DNA from: Desulfobacteraceae bacterium
Lineage (GTDB): Bacteria; Desulfobacterota; Desulfobacteria; Desulfobacterales; Desulfobacteraceae
Length of the DNA: 5,733 bases
Assembly: GCA_003354055.1 (NCBI GenBank)
Contig: PIVQ01000493.1
Span: 1-5,733 of the forward strand
Direction of reading: 5' to 3'
Of this stretch, positions 1-5,733 are shown piece after piece. Position numbers and translations under genes: made by a program. The notes beneath the pieces were generated by a model. It worked only from the letters and a program-made list of their open reading frames with translations, was not told the DNA's origin and made no database searches. Position 1 is the stretch's first letter. The number at the start of each line of letters is the position of its first letter.

Positions 1-965
1 CTGGCAATGACACAAAAGTTACGTCCTTGTTCAGAGAAGCTGAACAAATTTTTGAATAGATTCAGGAACAAATGCTTTAACTGGAGTTCTTTACCACTGA
101 TGGTATTAAATCCTTTGGATAAAAAATTTTGAAATTCAATCTTGATATTGTTATCCTTTGCATTCTGCCGTATCAGCACCAGGGTATCTTTGATAATGGT
201 GTCAATCTCAAGTAGCTCGTATTCATCTGATGAATTATGGGTAAATTCACGGAGACGTTCTATAATCTCCTTACAACGGTATACCTCATTATTAATAATG
301 TTCAGATATTCCCAAAAAGATTTGAAAGTCGTGTCTGCCTGGTCAATATCCATTTTTTTCAGACGTTTGAGAAGGCCTTCCGAAAATCCTGCAATAGATG
401 TCAAAGGATTGTTAATTTCATGGGCAATGCCGCTTGCCAGGAATCCCACGGATGCCATCCTGTGGGCCTGCATCAGTTTGAATTCATATTCTTTTCTGCC
501 GGTTACATCCCGCATGATCAAAAGAATTTCATCAACCTTGCCGAGTTGATTCTGGATAGGGGATATGGTCCATTCAAAATATCGCCCCGCAAGCATCCCA
601 TGCTTAAAAAATCTTTCTCCATGCAGTGTTTCTTGTGTTTTTAGAATTTTCAGGGCCGGGCAGTTTCGGCAGACCTCTTCTTTTTGATGAAAAATATGAT
701 AACATTTGCCCTCTCTTCCTGAAATTCCGGGAAACATTTGCTTTTGTATATGATTGGCATAGACAATGTTAAGATCCCTGTCCAGAATCGTCATTCCGCT
801 GTCCATGCTGTTAAATACAGCCTCAAGCCGGTTATGACGACGGGCCAGTTTCAGGTTGAGGCTTTCAAGTTCCTTGATTTTTGAACGCACCTGTTTGAAA
901 TGACCGATTTTTGAATGACCAAGCCCCTTGAAATCAGGCTCAGGCGAAGTTTCGTTAGTCTTCAT
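1..965 (-). CDS. PAS-domain sensor histidine kinase, 3' end cut by window edge
   Basis: This is the N-terminal 321 residues of a two-component sensor kinase, read without a stop from ATG 965-963 to the window edge. Residues 23-47 look like a short coiled coil. A PAS domain follows at about 48-158, ending in the usual DVTGRK linker. HisKA follows, with the H-box GIAHEINNPLTSI and phospho-accepting His182. The start of the ATPase domain is visible at about 291-321, where the N-box NLFKN (302-306) supplies the likely Mg-binding Asn306. The rest of the ATPase lies outside the window. No membrane segment is visible, so it is probably cytosolic. The PAS core holds three cysteines, C88-x10-C99-x2-C102-Pro, a pattern seen in many PAS kinases of anaerobic deltaproteobacteria that may bind metal or sense redox (inference). 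The start lies 8 nt after the ADH stop, which suggests co-transcription. No response regulator is visible; the ligand is unknown. Confidence 0.9.
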   Translation of the reverse strand, partial: MKTNETSPEPDFKGLGHSKIGHFKQVRSKIKELESLNLKLARRHNRLEAVFNSMDSGMTILDRDLNIVYANHIQKQMFPGISGREGKCYHIFHQKEEVCRNCPALKILKTQETLHGERFFKHGMLAGRYFEWTISPIQNQLGKVDEILLIMRDVTGRKEYEFKLMQAHRMASVGFLASGIAHEINNPLTSIAGFSEGLLKRLKKMDIDQADTTFKSFWEYLNIINNEVYRCKEIIERLREFTHNSSDEYELLEIDTIIKDTLVLIRQNAKDNNIKIEFQNFLSKGFNTISGKELQLKHLFLNLFKNLFSFSEQGRNFCVIA

Positions 966-973
966 TTCTATTT

Positions 974-2134
974 TTACCAGACCTCCTTGTACATGGCTTC
1001 AAGTTCTTTTGTTGAATAGGAACACGGGTTGGTCTGCATACAGATATCATCCTGTGCCATTTCCGCCATGGTCGGAATATCTTTGATATCCGCACCCAAC
1101 TTGGAAAGATGTGTTGGGATTTGCAAGTCCTCTATGAGTTTTTTTACCATTTCCGGTGTATGCAAAGCTGCCTCTTCAAACTTCATTCCTTTTAATTCAA
1201 GGCCCATTGCCCTGGCGATATAGACATATTTCGGCATGGCGGAACTTAAGTTCTGATCCAGTACAACAGGCAGGATCACTGAATTGATAAGGCCGTGATG
1301 GAGATCATACAACCCTCCCGGAGGATGAGCCAGGGCATGGGCAGCCCCCAGGATGGCATTGGAAAAGGCCATGCCGGCCTCAAGAGAGGCTATGGCCATT
1401 CCCTCCAGGGCAGTGATATCTTTTGTTTTGGATGCATTAACCAGGTGCTGGGCCACAAGTTCGATGGCATGAATGGCGTGGGGATCCGTCATGGGCCAGG
1501 AAAGGGAGGAGACATAGGCTTCTATGGCATGGGTCAGGGCGTCCATACCGGTGGCGGCAATCATTTCAGTGGACAGGGTTGTTAAAAGTTCGGGATCAAT
1601 CAGGGATATATCCGGCATGACGGCACGGCTTAAGACACTCATTTTCATTTTTTCCTTGAGATCCAGAAAAACGGCAAACTGGCTGATATCTGCTCCGGTC
1701 CCAGCGGTTGTGGGAACGCAGATCAACGGGGGAATAGGGTGGTGAACCAGGTTGCATCCCACATATTCATGCACAGTGCCATGATTTGTTGCCAGGATGG
1801 CAATTCCTTTGGCCACATCAATTGAACTTCCGCCGCCTATAGCAACAATCACGTCACAATCTTTTTTCCGATAAAGCCCTATTCCCTGATCCACCTGAAA
1901 ATCACGCGGGTTTGTGACGACATTGTCATAGAGAACATAGCTTAATCTTTCCTGGCTTAAATATTTTAGGCATTTGTCAACCCATCCTGCCTCGATAATT
2001 CCAGGATCTGTTACGACAAGAACCTTTTCTCCGCCCAGGCGTGCAGCACACTGTCCTATTTTGGAAAGGGAGCCCCGGCCAAAGATAATTTCCGGAATAT
2101 CAAATTTTAAAATGTTATCATCCTGATTCAGCAT
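974..2134 (-). CDS. Iron-containing (group III) alcohol dehydrogenase
   Basis: This 386-residue protein has the full length typical of the Fe-ADH family (FucO, 1,3-propanediol and methanol dehydrogenases), cytosolic NAD(P)-dependent enzymes that interconvert alcohols and aldehydes. The N-terminal dinucleotide-binding half holds the GGGS motif at 100-103 (AIGGGSSIDVAKG) and the PTTAGTG loop at 141-147. The metal site is complete by alignment to the FucO pattern: Asp198 and His202 in GMDALTHAIEAY, then His266 and His280 with the expected 14-residue spacing. His270 matches the conserved His next to the active site. The segment after it reads HPPGG where many members have HPLG. The ATG at 2134 is the first start after an in-frame TAA; only a weak GA-rich ribosome site precedes it. 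The gene lies 90 nt after an MftF-like gene. Since mycobacterial NDMA-dependent methanol dehydrogenase is an Fe-ADH tied to mycofactocin, this enzyme may use that cofactor (inference). The alcohol substrate cannot be read from the sequence. Confidence 0.95.
   Translation of the reverse strand: MLNQDDNILKFDIPEIIFGRGSLSKIGQCAARLGGEKVLVVTDPGIIEAGWVDKCLKYLSQERLSYVLYDNVVTNPRDFQVDQGIGLYRKKDCDVIVAIGGGSSIDVAKGIAILATNHGTVHEYVGCNLVHHPIPPLICVPTTAGTGADISQFAVFLDLKEKMKMSVLSRAVMPDISLIDPELLTTLSTEMIAATGMDALTHAIEAYVSSLSWPMTDPHAIHAIELVAQHLVNASKTKDITALEGMAIASLEAGMAFSNAILGAAHALAHPPGGLYDLHHGLINSVILPVVLDQNLSSAMPKYVYIARAMGLELKGMKFEEAALHTPEMVKKLIEDLQIPTHLSKLGADIKDIPTMAEMAQDDICMQTNPCSYSTKELEAMYKEVW
981..988 (-). promoter_or_regulatory. 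Shine-Dalgarno for the histidine kinase, inside the ADH gene
   Basis: The minus strand reads AAGGAGGT, a perfect anti-16S match, inside the last codons of the ADH gene (Lys-Glu-Val). It lies 15 nt before the kinase ATG at 965, which is longer than the usual 5-10 nt. No ATG, GTG or TTG lies in frame nearer to it, so the ATG at 965 remains the best start. The placement suggests the kinase is translated on the same message as the ADH. Confidence 0.6.
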
Positions 2135-2224: not shown

Positions 2225-3724
2225 TCACCCCCTGTCCCGTCTGCATACAATTATAGGTAAAACAGGATTTGCATTTCCATGTTGAAAACATCCCCACAGC
2301 ACCCCTGCCTGATAGGAAATCTGTTCTAAGGAAAAGAAAAAAAGAAATGATATGGGATTCATGCGGGTCTTTTTTAAGAAATATTCTGCAACACCTGCTG
2401 TCAGGTGCATACAAATAATAATGCCGAAAAACGTTGGAAATATGGGCCAAACGAGTAGGCCGGGTATAAGATAATAGCGGGATACAAAACTTGTACAATG
2501 ATATAAAAAAGACAGATAGCTACGGGTAACAGCATTTAAGACAGCAAAAAAACTGATGGGCAGCTTCATTTTATACAGCTTTGTTTTTCGGTTCACTATG
2601 TCTGATACAAAGATACCTGCACATACAATAAAGGGTATACTGCTTTTAAAACCTAAGGATAAGAGCAAAAGCATCCAGAAAAATAACTCATGGGGCGGGA
2701 GGAACAGCTTTTTTATCCTGTCGGGATGGAGTTTTTGCAGCAAAGGTTCAGAAGTCCCATAATCAAACCGCCTGGCGCAGAATGGCAGAGGATCATTTCT
2801 GTGTTTGTGGAAAATCCGGCCGATCGGCCTGTATTCCAGTATGCCATTGCTGTCCTGCAGCCTCCAGCAAAAATCTACATCCTCGCCCACATGAAGTTCT
2901 TCTTTCAGACCACCCAGTTTAAGGTACAGGTCGCGCCTGACAAGAATATTGCAAAAGGGCACGTAAAAAAAGTGCTCTTTTTTATTTGAGCGTTTAAACC
3001 AGGACCCGATTTTTAGCGAGGACTTGACTTTTTCATATTGATCAAGCCTTTTTTCATTATAATATGAATCCACGAGCCCCCCCAGAGCACCCAGGGAATC
3101 ATCCCGGAATGCCGGGACAAGTTCCCGAAGCCAGGAAGGATCGGCTAGACAATCAGAATCTATAAACGCCAGGATGTCACCTTTTGCCGCCCTGGCGGCC
3201 CGATTCCGGCAGAACGAGACCTGGCTGTGTTCTGTAAGGGCGATGAGTCTGACATTGGGAAAGCGTTTTATCATCTCAGGTGTGGTATCATCTGAAGCGT
3301 CGTCCACGACAATAACCTCGGTTTTTTCTTCCGGGTAGTCCAGTTCTTTAAGGGAGGTAAGGCAGGCAGATATGTCTTTGGGTCTGTTTCTTACGGGTAT
3401 GATAATGGAGACAAAAGGCAGGTCTTCGTCCGGTATAAAGGGAACACCTCTTAGTTCTAAGAATCCTTTACGCGTAAGGTCGTTGAGAAAAAATTCAACC
3501 TGTTGCAGACTGATTTCAGGAAGCTTTTGCGCAATATGGTCCAGGGACAAATATTCTAATGATACGAAACAATTTAGAACAGGCTTCCAGAAACGGTCGA
3601 TATAGACTGCTTTAAGAGGATAAGACAGGATCAGTACAGGCCGATCATCAGGCAAAAGTTTAACCTGCACCGATGATCTCATCCTGTACGCAAGATGTGT
3701 ATCAGATGTTTTTTTGCGATTCAA
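2225..3724 (-). CDS. mftF: Mycofactocin-type family 2 glycosyltransferase (MftF-like)
   Basis: This 499-residue protein has the MftF architecture. Residues about 13-92 form a small winged-helix-like domain resembling PqqD/RRE peptide-binding domains. A GT-A family 2 domain follows at about 103-330: VSIIIPVRNRP (105-115), the nucleotide-sugar aspartates VVDDASDD (139-146), the DxD motif D189-S-D191, and the catalytic GEDVDFCWRL (280-289). HKHR and ARRFDYGTS (317-325) resemble the MftF signature. The C-terminal part has hydrophobic segments at about 343-376 and 415-440, so it is probably membrane-associated. It ends with MNPISF...ISYQAGVLWG (455-478), which resembles the MftF tail. In mycobacteria MftF adds a glucose chain to the peptide-derived redox cofactor mycofactocin. 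The start is TTG, fixed by an upstream in-frame TAA and a well-spaced AAGGAG, and it overlaps etfB by 23 nt. The precursor mftA and maturases mftB-E are not in this window. A different GT2 role is possible, but the combination of three regions favours MftF. Confidence 0.83.
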   Translation of the reverse strand: MNRKKTSDTHLAYRMRSSVQVKLLPDDRPVLILSYPLKAVYIDRFWKPVLNCFVSLEYLSLDHIAQKLPEISLQQVEFFLNDLTRKGFLELRGVPFIPDEDLPFVSIIIPVRNRPKDISACLTSLKELDYPEEKTEVIVVDDASDDTTPEMIKRFPNVRLIALTEHSQVSFCRNRAARAAKGDILAFIDSDCLADPSWLRELVPAFRDDSLGALGGLVDSYYNEKRLDQYEKVKSSLKIGSWFKRSNKKEHFFYVPFCNILVRRDLYLKLGGLKEELHVGEDVDFCWRLQDSNGILEYRPIGRIFHKHRNDPLPFCARRFDYGTSEPLLQKLHPDRIKKLFLPPHELFFWMLLLLSLGFKSSIPFIVCAGIFVSDIVNRKTKLYKMKLPISFFAVLNAVTRSYLSFLYHCTSFVSRYYLIPGLLVWPIFPTFFGIIICMHLTAGVAEYFLKKTRMNPISFLFFFSLEQISYQAGVLWGCFQHGNANPVLPIIVCRRDRG

Positions 3725-4595
3725 TAAACTTGTTCTCCTTTAAAAAATTAATAATTCCTTCAACCTGTGATTCTGTGCTGCCGGTCAGTATTTCGCCTTT
3801 TTTCTCAACCGTGCTTCCGGCCAACAGTTGGAGAACACGGTCATAAGAATTCAGAGCGCTGTCAGGTGTCTGGATAATTCTGGGTCGTGGGATCGGTTGA
3901 AAGATATCCTGGCAAATAATTTTTGGAGCAATTGTCTTAGCACTGATATCCGGGATATCCGGACTGCGGATGTCGTAGGCATCGGCCTGTTTTCTTTTTT
4001 CAATGGTCGGCAGGCGGAGTTCGGCGCCTAAATCAACACTGAATACAGCAGGAAGGGCGCATTCGATAAACTCCCTGACTCCTTTTCCTGCACTCCTTTG
4101 CACCTTAACCATATTACTTTCTTTATCAAATGAAAGGTCAATGATGGCCGATACAAACGGTAGATTAAGCTGCTGTGCCACAAGCGCCCCTACCTGGCCG
4201 CTTGCCCTGTCCATGGATTCTTTTCCGCAAAGGATCAGGTCGGCATTAAGTGATTTTGCAGCTTGTGAGATCAGGTCGGCCTTAACCCAGGGATCAGGTT
4301 GAGAAAAAGGATCAGGGTCTTTGTGCCCGTTGAAATCTATCTGGTAAAGATGATCCGGTCCGGTTGCCAGGCAACGTCGGAGTTGATCCTCTGAAATCAT
4401 GTCTCCCAGGGTCAGAAGATTGATTTCAGTGTTCCCGACTATGTCCTTCAGACGCAAAGCAATCTCTGTGGCTGCCTCGTCGTAAGGGTTTACCCGGAAT
4501 ATGGAATCTTCAGGATTGACATACTTTGTGTCGGGATCATTACCGGTTCTGGTATATGTATAACTTATCTGTTTTGCACAAACGATGATTTTCAT
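3702..4595 (-). CDS. etfB: Electron transfer flavoprotein beta subunit (EtfB/FixA family)
   Basis: The 297-residue protein is an EtfB homologue. EtfB pairs with EtfA to form a soluble FAD carrier between dehydrogenases and a membrane quinone oxidoreductase. Family hallmarks are the N-terminal MKIIVCAKQI strand, NPYDEAATEIALRLKD (36-51), the nucleotide loop ILCGKESMDRASGQVGALVA (121-140), the VQRSAGKGVREFIE segment (165-178) and the LPAVFSVD strand before an arginine/lysine-rich recognition-loop region (192-204). The loop has DRASGQVG where canonical EtfB has DGDTAQVG, so the AMP or second-FAD site may differ. It is longer than the usual 250-265 residues, mostly through a C-terminal extension (about 225-297). 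ATG at 4595 follows AAGAGG with 5-nt spacing. It lies between an EMO-type oxidoreductase and mftF; no etfA is adjacent on the downstream side, so etfA is presumably upstream of the window or elsewhere. Whether this ETF bifurcates electrons cannot be decided here. Confidence 0.92.
   Translation of the reverse strand: MKIIVCAKQISYTYTRTGNDPDTKYVNPEDSIFRVNPYDEAATEIALRLKDIVGNTEINLLTLGDMISEDQLRRCLATGPDHLYQIDFNGHKDPDPFSQPDPWVKADLISQAAKSLNADLILCGKESMDRASGQVGALVAQQLNLPFVSAIIDLSFDKESNMVKVQRSAGKGVREFIECALPAVFSVDLGAELRLPTIEKRKQADAYDIRSPDIPDISAKTIAPKIICQDIFQPIPRPRIIQTPDSALNSYDRVLQLLAGSTVEKKGEILTGSTESQVEGIINFLKENKFIESQKNI
3735..3740 (-). promoter_or_regulatory. Shine-Dalgarno that fixes the TTG start of mftF
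   Basis: The minus strand reads AAGGAG within the last codons of etfB (Lys-Glu), 10 nt before TTG at 3724-3722. In the mftF frame a TAA stop directly precedes this site, and the next ATG is codon 15. The TTG is therefore the only start that explains both the site and the conserved N-terminal domain. The arrangement implies translational coupling to etfB. Confidence 0.75.
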
Positions 4596-4607
4596 TTTAT
4601 CCTCTTA

Positions 4608-4714
4608 CTAAGGATCGGCTCCAAAATTACTTGATCTTTTGTTTTCAAAATACCCAGTCTTTTAAGGGTTTTTGGAAACAATTTAGATCAAGTTATTTTG
4701 TAACGATTCCTAAG
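4608..4714. repeat. Long imperfect palindrome filling the EMO-etfB intergenic gap
   Basis: Arms at 4622-4637 (CAAAATTACTTGATCT) and 4685-4700 (AGATCAAGTTATTTTG) pair at 15 of 16 positions. Inside them, 4639-4650 pairs with 4670-4681 over 12 positions with one G-T wobble, and CCC 4653-4655 pairs with GGG 4666-4668 around a 10-nt loop. Outside, CTAAGGATCG (4608-4617) pairs imperfectly with 4704-4714. The whole gap can thus fold into one hairpin. It ends 2 nt from the etfB ribosome site and begins 8 nt after the Fe-S gene stop. No T-run follows on the minus strand, so it does not look like an intrinsic terminator. It could be an mRNA-processing or stabilising hairpin, a regulatory leader, or a MITE-like palindromic element. 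Confidence 0.75.
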
Positions 4715-4722
4715 GTTTCAGG

Positions 4723-5733
4723 TTATTTTATCGCATCTGCAACAATGTCAATAATATCGGTTACCTCCGGTGTCTTTTCTCTCTCCAGAGATTTTACCCC
4801 GTCATCCAGCATTACCAGGCAATAGGGGCAGGATGTCCCGATGATATCGATATCTGCATCTGCTATCTCTTCAGCCCGAATCAGGTTGATGTTTTGCCCA
4901 ATGTTCTCATGAAGCCACATTCTTCCGCCGCCGCCACCGCAGCAAAATCCTTTTTCTTTATTTCGTGAAAGTTCCTTTGGCCGGGTTCCGGAAACCGCTT
5001 TACAGATGTCTCTGGGGGGCCCGTATACGTCATTATACCGCCCAAGGTAGCAGGCATCGTGAACCGCTATTTTTTTGGCAACAGGATAGGTTAATGTGAT
5101 CTTCTTCTCGTTGACCAGATCCATAACAAACTGTGTTGCATGAACCACAGGGATATTGCAGCCCAGTTCAGGATATTCATTTTTCAGGGTATTGAGGCAA
5201 TGGGGACAGAGGGTAACGATTTTTTTTATCTGATAGTGTTTAAACTTATCGATATTCTGTCTTGCAAGATTCTGGTACAGGGTCTCCTCCCCAAGTCTTC
5301 TGGCCGGGTCTCCGCAGCAGACTTCCTCCTGTGCCAATATGCCGAAACTGATATTTGCTGCTTTCAGGATTTTAACGAATGCCTGTGCGGTTTCTTTATT
5401 CCGGGGATGGAAAGCACCTGAGCAGCCGACCCAGAACAGAATCTCGGCATCTTTTACATCCCCAATTTCAGGAATATCCCGGTTCATGGCCCAGTCTGCA
5501 CGATGAGCTGCTCCTTTACCCTGGACATCACCGTAAAGTTCAAGGTCACGGATCATGGGGCGTGCCTCGGCCGGCATATCTCCCTTACCCATTACCTGGT
5601 AACGCCGCATGTCCACAATTTTGTCCATTGCTTCAACAAACACAGGACAGTGTTCTACACAGGCCATGCAAGTGGTGCAGGCCCAGATTTCGTCACCGGT
5701 TATGGTGTCTTCAAGAAGAGACTGCGCTGAAGG
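4723..5733 (-). CDS. EMO-type Fe-S oxidoreductase (ETF:quinone oxidoreductase), C-terminal part
   Basis: The C-terminal 336 residues are visible; the open frame continues past the right edge. The fragment opens near ITGDEIWACTTCMACVEHCP, a [4Fe-4S] ferredoxin motif (C19, C22, C25, C29 of the visible part), followed by DKIVDMRRYQVM, typical of EMO proteins. Two CCG domains follow. The first has C104, C139-C140-G, C176-x2-C179; the second C228, C264-C265-G, C302-x2-C305. These spacings match the HdrB/HdrD pattern that binds non-cubane [4Fe-4S] clusters. The tail FCCGGGGGRMW is usual in this family. Complete members also have an N-terminal NarI-like membrane domain and a further Cys cluster, expected off-window. 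Family knowledge suggests it takes electrons from an ETF and passes them to menaquinone, consistent with etfB directly downstream. The ATG at 5667 lies inside the Fe-S motif and cannot be the true start. A heterodisulfide-reductase-like or lactate/glycolate-oxidase-like partner is a less likely alternative. Confidence 0.9.
   Translation of the reverse strand, partial: PSAQSLLEDTITGDEIWACTTCMACVEHCPVFVEAMDKIVDMRRYQVMGKGDMPAEARPMIRDLELYGDVQGKGAAHRADWAMNRDIPEIGDVKDAEILFWVGCSGAFHPRNKETAQAFVKILKAANISFGILAQEEVCCGDPARRLGEETLYQNLARQNIDKFKHYQIKKIVTLCPHCLNTLKNEYPELGCNIPVVHATQFVMDLVNEKKITLTYPVAKKIAVHDACYLGRYNDVYGPPRDICKAVSGTRPKELSRNKEKGFCCGGGGGRMWLHENIGQNINLIRAEEIADADIDIIGTSCPYCLVMLDDGVKSLEREKTPEVTDIIDIVADAIK

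Follow-up and report, generated by a model that had tools for sequence, protein, structure and literature searches.

A mycofactocin glycosyltransferase gene beside a putative ETF outlet to menaquinone in a Desulfobacteraceae bacterium

In mycobacteria, mycofactocinol, the reduced form of the cofactor mycofactocin, has been shown to be reoxidised via MftG, which in M. smegmatis connects mycofactocin oxidation to respiration (PMC11778925), and the core of the cofactor results from Val-Tyr chemistry (PMC7491314). Clusters comprising mftA, mftB, mftC and mftF have also been described from the anaerobes Geobacter uraniireducens, Pelotomaculum and Desulfotomaculum, along with iron-containing alcohol dehydrogenases (Fe-ADHs) that harbour a hot spot in the NAD loop; the term ETF (electron-transfer flavoprotein) is absent from the main text of that paper (Haft 2011, PMC3023750). 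The link to ETFs has been noticed before, as the NCBIfam models TIGR04503 (mft_etfB) and NF038209 (mft_etfA) tie ETF subunits to mycofactocin genes. Mycofactocin clusters of anaerobes and ETF models associated with the cofactor are both on record. Where an anaerobe carries genes for the cofactor but lacks a recognisable MftG, reoxidation has to follow a different route. Here, we analyse a stretch of 5,733 nucleotides from a Desulfobacteraceae bacterium, probably a sulfate reducer (contig PIVQ01000493.1; termed “the window”), in which the mycofactocin glycosyltransferase gene mftF lies next to the ETF beta subunit gene etfB, and compare it with genomes (G) and loci (L) of relatives.

Our preferred reading, to which we assign a probability of about two in three, is that the window represents those genes of an anaerobic mycofactocin system that serve glycosylation and electron outlet in a Desulfobacterales-type bacterium, and that the reduced cofactor is reoxidised via ETF and an ETF:menaquinone oxidoreductase (EMO) into menaquinone. 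MftF would glycosylate mycofactocin produced by mftA, mftB and mftC encoded elsewhere in the genome. Mycofactocin-coupled dehydrogenases, namely the short-chain dehydrogenases/reductases (SDRs) of linked loci and possibly the Fe-ADH, would reduce mycofactocin to mycofactocinol, and the ETF would accept the electrons, either directly or through the flavoenzymes of the old yellow enzyme (OYE) type that precede etfA. An EMO of the EtfD type would then relay the electrons to menaquinone by way of its Fe-S clusters and haem b, and a multihaem c-type cytochrome might form a side branch in the periplasm, so that ETF/EMO (or ETF/FixCX) would stand in the place of MftG. Like the mycobacterial system (MftA to MftG, Mdo/Mno), the relatives possess mftA, mftB, mftC and mftF, have mycofactocin-coupled dehydrogenases nearby and must deliver the reduced cofactor to the respiratory chain. 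Unlike it, they are devoid of MftD, MftE and MftG over cut-off (25 genomes), feature ETF plus EMO or FixCX instead and, in G001, have an mftA core of Ile-Tyr.

The glycosyltransferase of the window exceeds the cut-off of the MftF model TIGR03965 (280 bits; Table 1) over profile positions 42-465 of 467. MftF over cut-off occurs once per genome in 25/25 relatives, which were selected by way of an MftF match, and in 0/14 control genomes. The closest MftF relatives are those of G002 (81% identical) and G001 (76%), and a homologue from Desulfonema limicola (Desulfobacterales), named mycofactocin glycosyltransferase by its source, is 71% identical. In a maximum-likelihood tree built from 63 MftF and 5 other GT2 sequences (68 rows), the window protein groups with L002 and L001 at 100/100 and with L003 and L004 at 99/92 inside a 26-row group, and the fork uniting all 63 MftF rows is supported at just 80/68. 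The placement inside the MftF clade agrees with the original prediction, made for this DNA from its letters alone.

The window, probably an entire contig, contains five genes, every one on the minus strand. That prediction had named an MftF-like gene overlapping etfB, next to an EMO-type Fe-S protein and an Fe-ADH on one strand, and these gene calls are right, yet the span given for them (2225..5733) begins beyond the Fe-ADH at 974-2134. The overlap of etfB and mftF amounts to 23 nt, provided that the TTG start of mftF is correct, and an overlap is also found in L001, where the gene order etfB-mftF-Fe-ADH-histidine kinase-response regulator is identical. The loci of the relatives were annotated with profiles built from those same loci. 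In an even sample of the relative's phylum, MftF was found in 19/395 genomes, and in 17 of these 19 etfB adjoins mftF or lies one gene off (four with one intervening gene); the exceptions are G402 and G167, where the contig begins inside mftF. Because etfB is kept at mftF in 17/19 genomes, the neighbourhood seen in the window is not a product of chance. This joint conservation argues strongly against an ordinary ETF/EMO of acyl-CoA oxidation that came to lie beside mftF by chance or rearrangement, as does the finding that acyl-CoA dehydrogenase is not among the recurrent neighbour families named, a naming that does not extend to every neighbour. Such an ETF/EMO would be in keeping with the role of EtfD in mycobacterial beta-oxidation (PMC13083937) and with an EtfB that scores below the mft_etfB cut-off, but we regard it as barely plausible. 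One or two extra radical SAM genes, distinct from MftC, were also observed beside mftF in L003 (6747-7901), L005, L011-L013, L015-L020, L030 and others.

The Fe-S protein, of which the window holds the C-terminal piece, matches the solved M. smegmatis EtfD (9ojn_A) with E=2.2e-85 and comprises two Pfam CCG domains plus ferredoxin cysteines. With EtfD (PMC13083937) it shares the CCG/ferredoxin architecture, which in L003 extends to the membrane haem part, the His583-type D2 site and the D3/D4 cysteines. Four of the eight D3/D4 cysteines and both CCG domains are present in the window, and the other four cysteines are found in the full-length protein of L003, whose His72 and His215 align with the haem b histidines His78 and His241 of EtfD; the corresponding region lies outside the window. 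The EMO relatives measure 624-647 aa and contain five membrane segments predicted from hydropathy (four in L009). Unlike EtfD, the window protein has a Cys at the position of Thr539, resides in a mycofactocin gene setting and is accompanied in relatives by a multihaem cytochrome. Thr539 makes the first EtfD cluster a linear [3Fe-4S] (PMC13083937), and the Cys in its place might thus permit a fuller, Hdr-like D1 cluster in the window EMO. Judged by its conserved ligands, the protein is likely of the EMO/EtfD type and predicted to act as an ETF:menaquinone oxidoreductase. Gene context and ligand conservation also support the earlier suggestion that ETF and an EtfD-type EMO are the likely outlet for the reduced cofactor, to which electrons would be transferred as outlined above.

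What stands between etfA and etfB in the relatives bears on this suggestion. Among 33 loci in which both genes share a strand and are found within 9 kb (L014 is excluded, as it duplicates L107; L042, with etfA on the opposite strand, and L045, with no etfB in view, fall outside this set), the slot is occupied by FixC plus FixX in 22 and by the multihaem cytochrome plus EMO in 11, and no locus has both or neither. Seven CXXCH motifs are present in 15/17 cytochrome rows (L014 included), six in L010 and five in L045. EtfD is unrelated to the ETF:quinone oxidoreductase ETF-QO (PMC13083937). FixC/X and EtfD are unrelated ETF:quinone oxidoreductases, so their exchange at a single operon position is evidence for the function of that position. 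Owing to this exchange, the proposed answer to the reoxidation question could be tested on purified proteins supplied with synthetic premycofactocin. Upstream of this slot, an OYE gene is the next annotated gene before etfA in 33/38 etfA rows, OYE_2 exceeds its cut-off (793) in 27/41 genomes and 0/14 controls, and the order mftC-OYE-etfA is found on one strand in 19 loci (L014 and L107 represent a single region).

The FixC and FixX genes in the operon of many relatives, together with the bifurcating type of the best solved relatives (6fah and 4kpu for EtfB; 5ol2, 6fah, 4kpu and 7koe for EtfA), render attractive the alternative of a bifurcating, FixABCX-like ETF of group 2, which would split the electrons between menaquinone and ferredoxin. 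We set it aside on motifs and hold it to be very unlikely. By the group-2 motif definitions of PMC10734219, a paper in which the name EtfA denotes the beta subunit (7koe_A), the window EtfB is without RxGV and GxxSPTxV. RxGV occurs in the N-terminal region of 1/48 EtfB rows, GxxSPTxV in 0/48 and RPxFGG in 0/38 EtfA rows, with a looser form in two (both sets include L014), whereas the displayed solved ETFs do carry such motifs: REGV (6fah), RDGV (4kpu) and RPAFGG (5ol2, 6fah). Moreover, the midpoint potential of premycofactocin (PMFT) is -255 mV (PMC7491314) and that of menaquinone -74 mV (PMC10734219), and hence electrons would run downhill via ETF and EMO with no need for bifurcation.

The genes mftA, mftB and mftC were found in relatives, from which we infer their presence elsewhere in the genome of the window organism. 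A regex for the mycofactocin precursor gave no hit in the window or in the mftF loci L001-L017, and several of these genomes carry mftA in a separate locus. In G001, the source of L001, mftA-mftB-mftC resides on another contig (C182, L099), with a variant MftA scoring 45.0 against NF040489 (cut-off 30) and MftB scoring 51.8 against TIGR03967 (cut-off 33). MftC exceeds its cut-off in 17/25 relative genomes and 0/14 controls; below cut-off every genome gives matches. An mftA ending in [IV]DGICG[IV]Y is present in the fetched flanks of 14/17 mftC loci and lies farther off in G025; the surroundings of mftC showed no mftA in G024 or in G017, the latter at a contig edge. The biosynthetic and outlet genes can also be physically joined. 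In G005, mftC (3803-4777) and mftF (24293-25717) share one 35-kb contig, on which OYE, etfA, cytC, EMO and etfB precede mftF, and L107 forms the single collinear run mftA-mftB-mftC-OYE-OYE-etfA-cytC-EMO-etfB-SDR-mftF. The SDR of L100 exceeds the cut-off for mycofactocin-coupled SDRs (537.6 against 385), and that of L107 stays below it (358.5).

In aerobes, MftD carries out an oxidative deamination using O2. Neither MftD nor MftE was found over cut-off in the relatives (0/25 genomes each), and therefore these steps need other enzymes; an MftE near miss, the creatininase of G014 (170.4 against a cut-off of 172), is encoded on a different contig from the mft operon of that genome. This result and the mftC-OYE-etfA order favour another role for OYE, ETF and EMO, namely the making of mycofactocin by an anaerobic route that replaces the deamination by MftD, with the finished cofactor being reoxidised elsewhere. 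Yet, a respiratory complex that includes a multihaem cytochrome would seem oversized for a step required in catalytic amounts. Furthermore, the loci L022, L023, L034 and L036, which are of the lar type considered below, contain no OYE or ETF gene, OYE_2 stays below its cut-off in their genomes (best scores 476-502 against 793), and the two lar-type genomes tested, G022 and G023, are without MftD over cut-off too. We consider a purely biosynthetic role rather unlikely, and biosynthesis and reoxidation could both be served at once.

Several points weigh against the preferred reading, that is, a glycosylation-and-outlet module that delivers electrons from mycofactocinol to menaquinone. The window EtfB reaches 84.1 bits against mft_etfB (TIGR04503; cut-off 200), EtfB is likewise below this cut-off in all 19 genomes searched, and the EtfA of L107 scores 138.7 against NF038209 (cut-off 240), so that both proteins fall outside the curated bounds of the known mycofactocin-associated ETFs. 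MftC is not over cut-off in eight of the 25 relatives (G002, G003, G007, G012, G013, G015, G016 and G019), whose loci are titled as metagenome-assembled genomes, and among them G002 is the bearer of the closest MftF. The absence of MftD and MftE over cut-off means that OYE and ETF could serve biosynthesis instead. The searches for MftG were negative with TIGR03970 (0/25 genomes), NF038210 (0/43), TIGR04542 (0/43) and in a further set (0/20), among genomes that include no true-MftG positive control. Finally, gene content, gene order, families and ligand conservation are observed, and every electron-transfer step is predicted from them, including the acceptance by ETF of electrons from mycofactocinol. 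As for candidate MftG proteins, the best GMC proteins of G005 and G007 (332 and 305 against a cut-off of 387) were rejected, as they exceed the cut-off for the choline dehydrogenase BetA; the best GMC proteins of G001 and G008 scored in pieces only and not over the MftG cut-off.

The idea of an anaerobic mycofactocin system put forward in the original prediction is thus upheld by MftF over cut-off, by mftA, mftB and mftC in G001 and by the run in L107, and its expectation of mftC and mftA genes holds for the relatives with MftC and for G001, but not for G002, where no MftC exceeds the cut-off. Its description of a little-described route stands for the EMO form and has to be qualified for the ETF, given the existing NCBIfam EtfA and EtfB models, which it overlooked along with the multihaem cytochrome of the EMO, the FixC/FixX exchange and the lack of MftD, MftE and MftG over cut-off. 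A tie of mycofactocin to ETF, EMO or larB was not found in the titles and abstract starts of the open-licence papers listed (the lists were capped, one of them giving 40 of 72), and neither the EMO plus multihaem cytochrome form, nor the FixCX exchange, nor the tie to nickel-pincer nucleotide (NPN) genes was found in these searches. If the proposed outlet is correct, sulfate reducers and syntrophs would gain an alcohol-to-quinone-pool route that bypasses free NADH.

The Fe-ADH could be a dehydrogenase that feeds electrons into the pathway, a role for which its intact metal-binding Asp/His motifs (aligned with solved Fe-ADHs) and the loop over the NAD site speak. The loop fits the published mycofactocin-linked hot spot, which in Dtox_4270 reads TSNPKDYEVH (Haft 2011, PMC3023750). 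T, S or G precedes NP in 19/19 readable Fe-ADH rows near mft genes (a count in which L101 repeats L005, and which leaves out 8 rows of LarA homologues and L104, cut at the loop), and P does so in all 5 solved NAD(P)-dependent Fe-ADHs shown. Among the best 120 of 515 homologues, 118 match the loop pattern, all 118 with T, S or G. The Fe-ADH of Desulfonema limicola is 78% identical to that of the window. NPKD alone was rejected as a mark of mycofactocin-linked loops: it also occurs in 3bfj, and the difference lies solely in the residue before NP.

The cassette in which the Fe-ADH is embedded points in another direction. The top curated model for the protein is the regulatory ErcA (NF041833; 464 bits, cut-off 550), and the NDMA (N,N-dimethyl-4-nitrosoaniline)-dependent methanol dehydrogenase model TIGR04266 yields 182.8 bits (cut-off 625). 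As with ErcA, a kinase is encoded beside the Fe-ADH; unlike ErcA, the protein scores below the cut-off and belongs to a mycofactocin setting. The set of Fe-ADH, histidine kinase and response regulator recurs together in L001, L016, L023, L101, L103 and L104, with kinases 54-80% identical to that of the window. Because of this conserved cassette and the best score against ErcA, the Fe-ADH may have a sensory role instead of supplying the pathway, and we judge the odds to be even that it is an ErcA-like protein that senses alcohols or aldehydes together with the kinase and response regulator. Sensing and catalysis are not exclusive, and on sequence grounds the Fe-ADH may be catalytic, sensory or both. 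Of the 8 scanned loci with a DUF362 gene, 5 (L099, L101, L102, L144 and L036) showed sigma-54-like sites (up to 2 mismatches) upstream of the first such gene, and in total 22 sites were counted against 14.7 expected, both weak signals; the scan of the window gave no site. Such sites would agree, weakly, with regulation through a sigma-54-type response regulator belonging to the Fe-ADH/kinase cassette.

Table 1. Positions of features in the window and, where a locus is named, in loci of relatives.
Feature	Position	Strand	Remark
EMO/EtfD-type Fe-S protein, C-terminal 336 residues	4723..5733	minus	5' end cut by window; membrane N-terminal part outside
Motif CTTCMACVEHC	5647..5679	minus	Aligns with EtfD Cys412/415/418/422, ligands of clusters D3 and D4
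Motif CCGDPARR	5296..5319	minus	Second Cys at the aligned position of EtfD Thr539 (M. smegmatis)
Motif CPHCLNT	5188..5208	minus	His aligns with EtfD His583, D2 cluster ligand
etfB, ETF beta subunit, mycofactocin-linked type	3702..4595	minus	PF01012, 89.1 bits
mftF, mycofactocin glycosyltransferase	2225..3724	minus	TIGR03965, 313.2 bits
Fe-ADH family protein, ErcA-like	974..2134	minus	PF00465/PF25137; NF041833, 464 bits
Loop VTNPRDFQV over NAD site	1892..1918	minus	Position of published mycofactocin-linked hot spot
PAS-domain sensor histidine kinase	3..965	minus	HisKA and PAS_4; C-terminus cut by window end
mftA loci with GIY (Ile-Tyr) core	L022, L023, L034, L036, L099, L100, L101, L102, L104, L144		
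larE/larB/larC	L100 16915-19865		Also L022, L023, L034, L036, L101, L102, L104, L140, L141, L142, L144, L150, L153
DUF362 protein with LarA-type H-x9-K-x15-H near mftABC	L023 2975-4468		Also L036, L099, L100, L101, L102, L104, L144

The mftABC loci fall into two types. Among 35 mftA loci, the core ends in GIY in 10 and in GVY in 25. An OYE gene is present in 0/10 GIY and 23/25 GVY loci (Fisher p = 3.6e-7, uncorrected for kinship or locus length), and larB/C/E genes, DUF362 genes or both accompany 10/10 GIY loci; in the 25 GVY loci, lar genes occur in 4 and a weak DUF362 match in one. The genomes G001, G004, G005, G006 and G009 combine a GIY mftABC with mftF beside etfB. By analogy with Val-Tyr chemistry, a core of Ile-Tyr, if present, would give the cofactor of the window organism one more carbon, and the GIY core thus predicts a chemically different mycofactocin; NCBIfam already includes a model named “variant-type mycofactocin precursor”. 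G072 (L144, L145 and L191) holds two mycofactocin systems. One, of the GIY lar type, has both an mftC and an mftF to itself; the other, of the GVY OYE-etf-EMO type, has mftC, and the second mftF of the genome is located on a different contig.

The NPN biosynthesis genes larE, larB and larC lie beside mft genes in 14/72 mft loci. The DUF362 protein of L023 has a predicted LarA fold and conserved ferredoxin-type cysteines; a DUF362 profile search against PDB sequences returned ferredoxin-type matches and no LarA among the best 60 of 148, so that the likeness to LarA comes from the fold. The protein is possibly a redox-active nickel-pincer enzyme. In a more speculative scenario, which we find distinctly doubtful, the window would serve an Ile-Tyr variant mycofactocin that is made without O2 and coupled to NPN chemistry: the DUF362 enzyme could accept the hydride of mycofactocinol (an alpha-hydroxyamide) on a nickel-pincer cofactor and give it off in the form of electrons, which would make the protein an NPN enzyme with net redox activity, and ETF-EMO would be a second or downstream outlet. 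Homologues of LarA (lactate-racemase family) are encoded at distances between 2 and 6,484 bases from mft genes in L025, L028, L031, L032, L038 and L043 (Chloroflexota) as well as in L010 and L019 (Desulfobacterota), and their occurrence in other lineages indicates that the link between mycofactocin and nickel-pincer genes is not confined to one clade.

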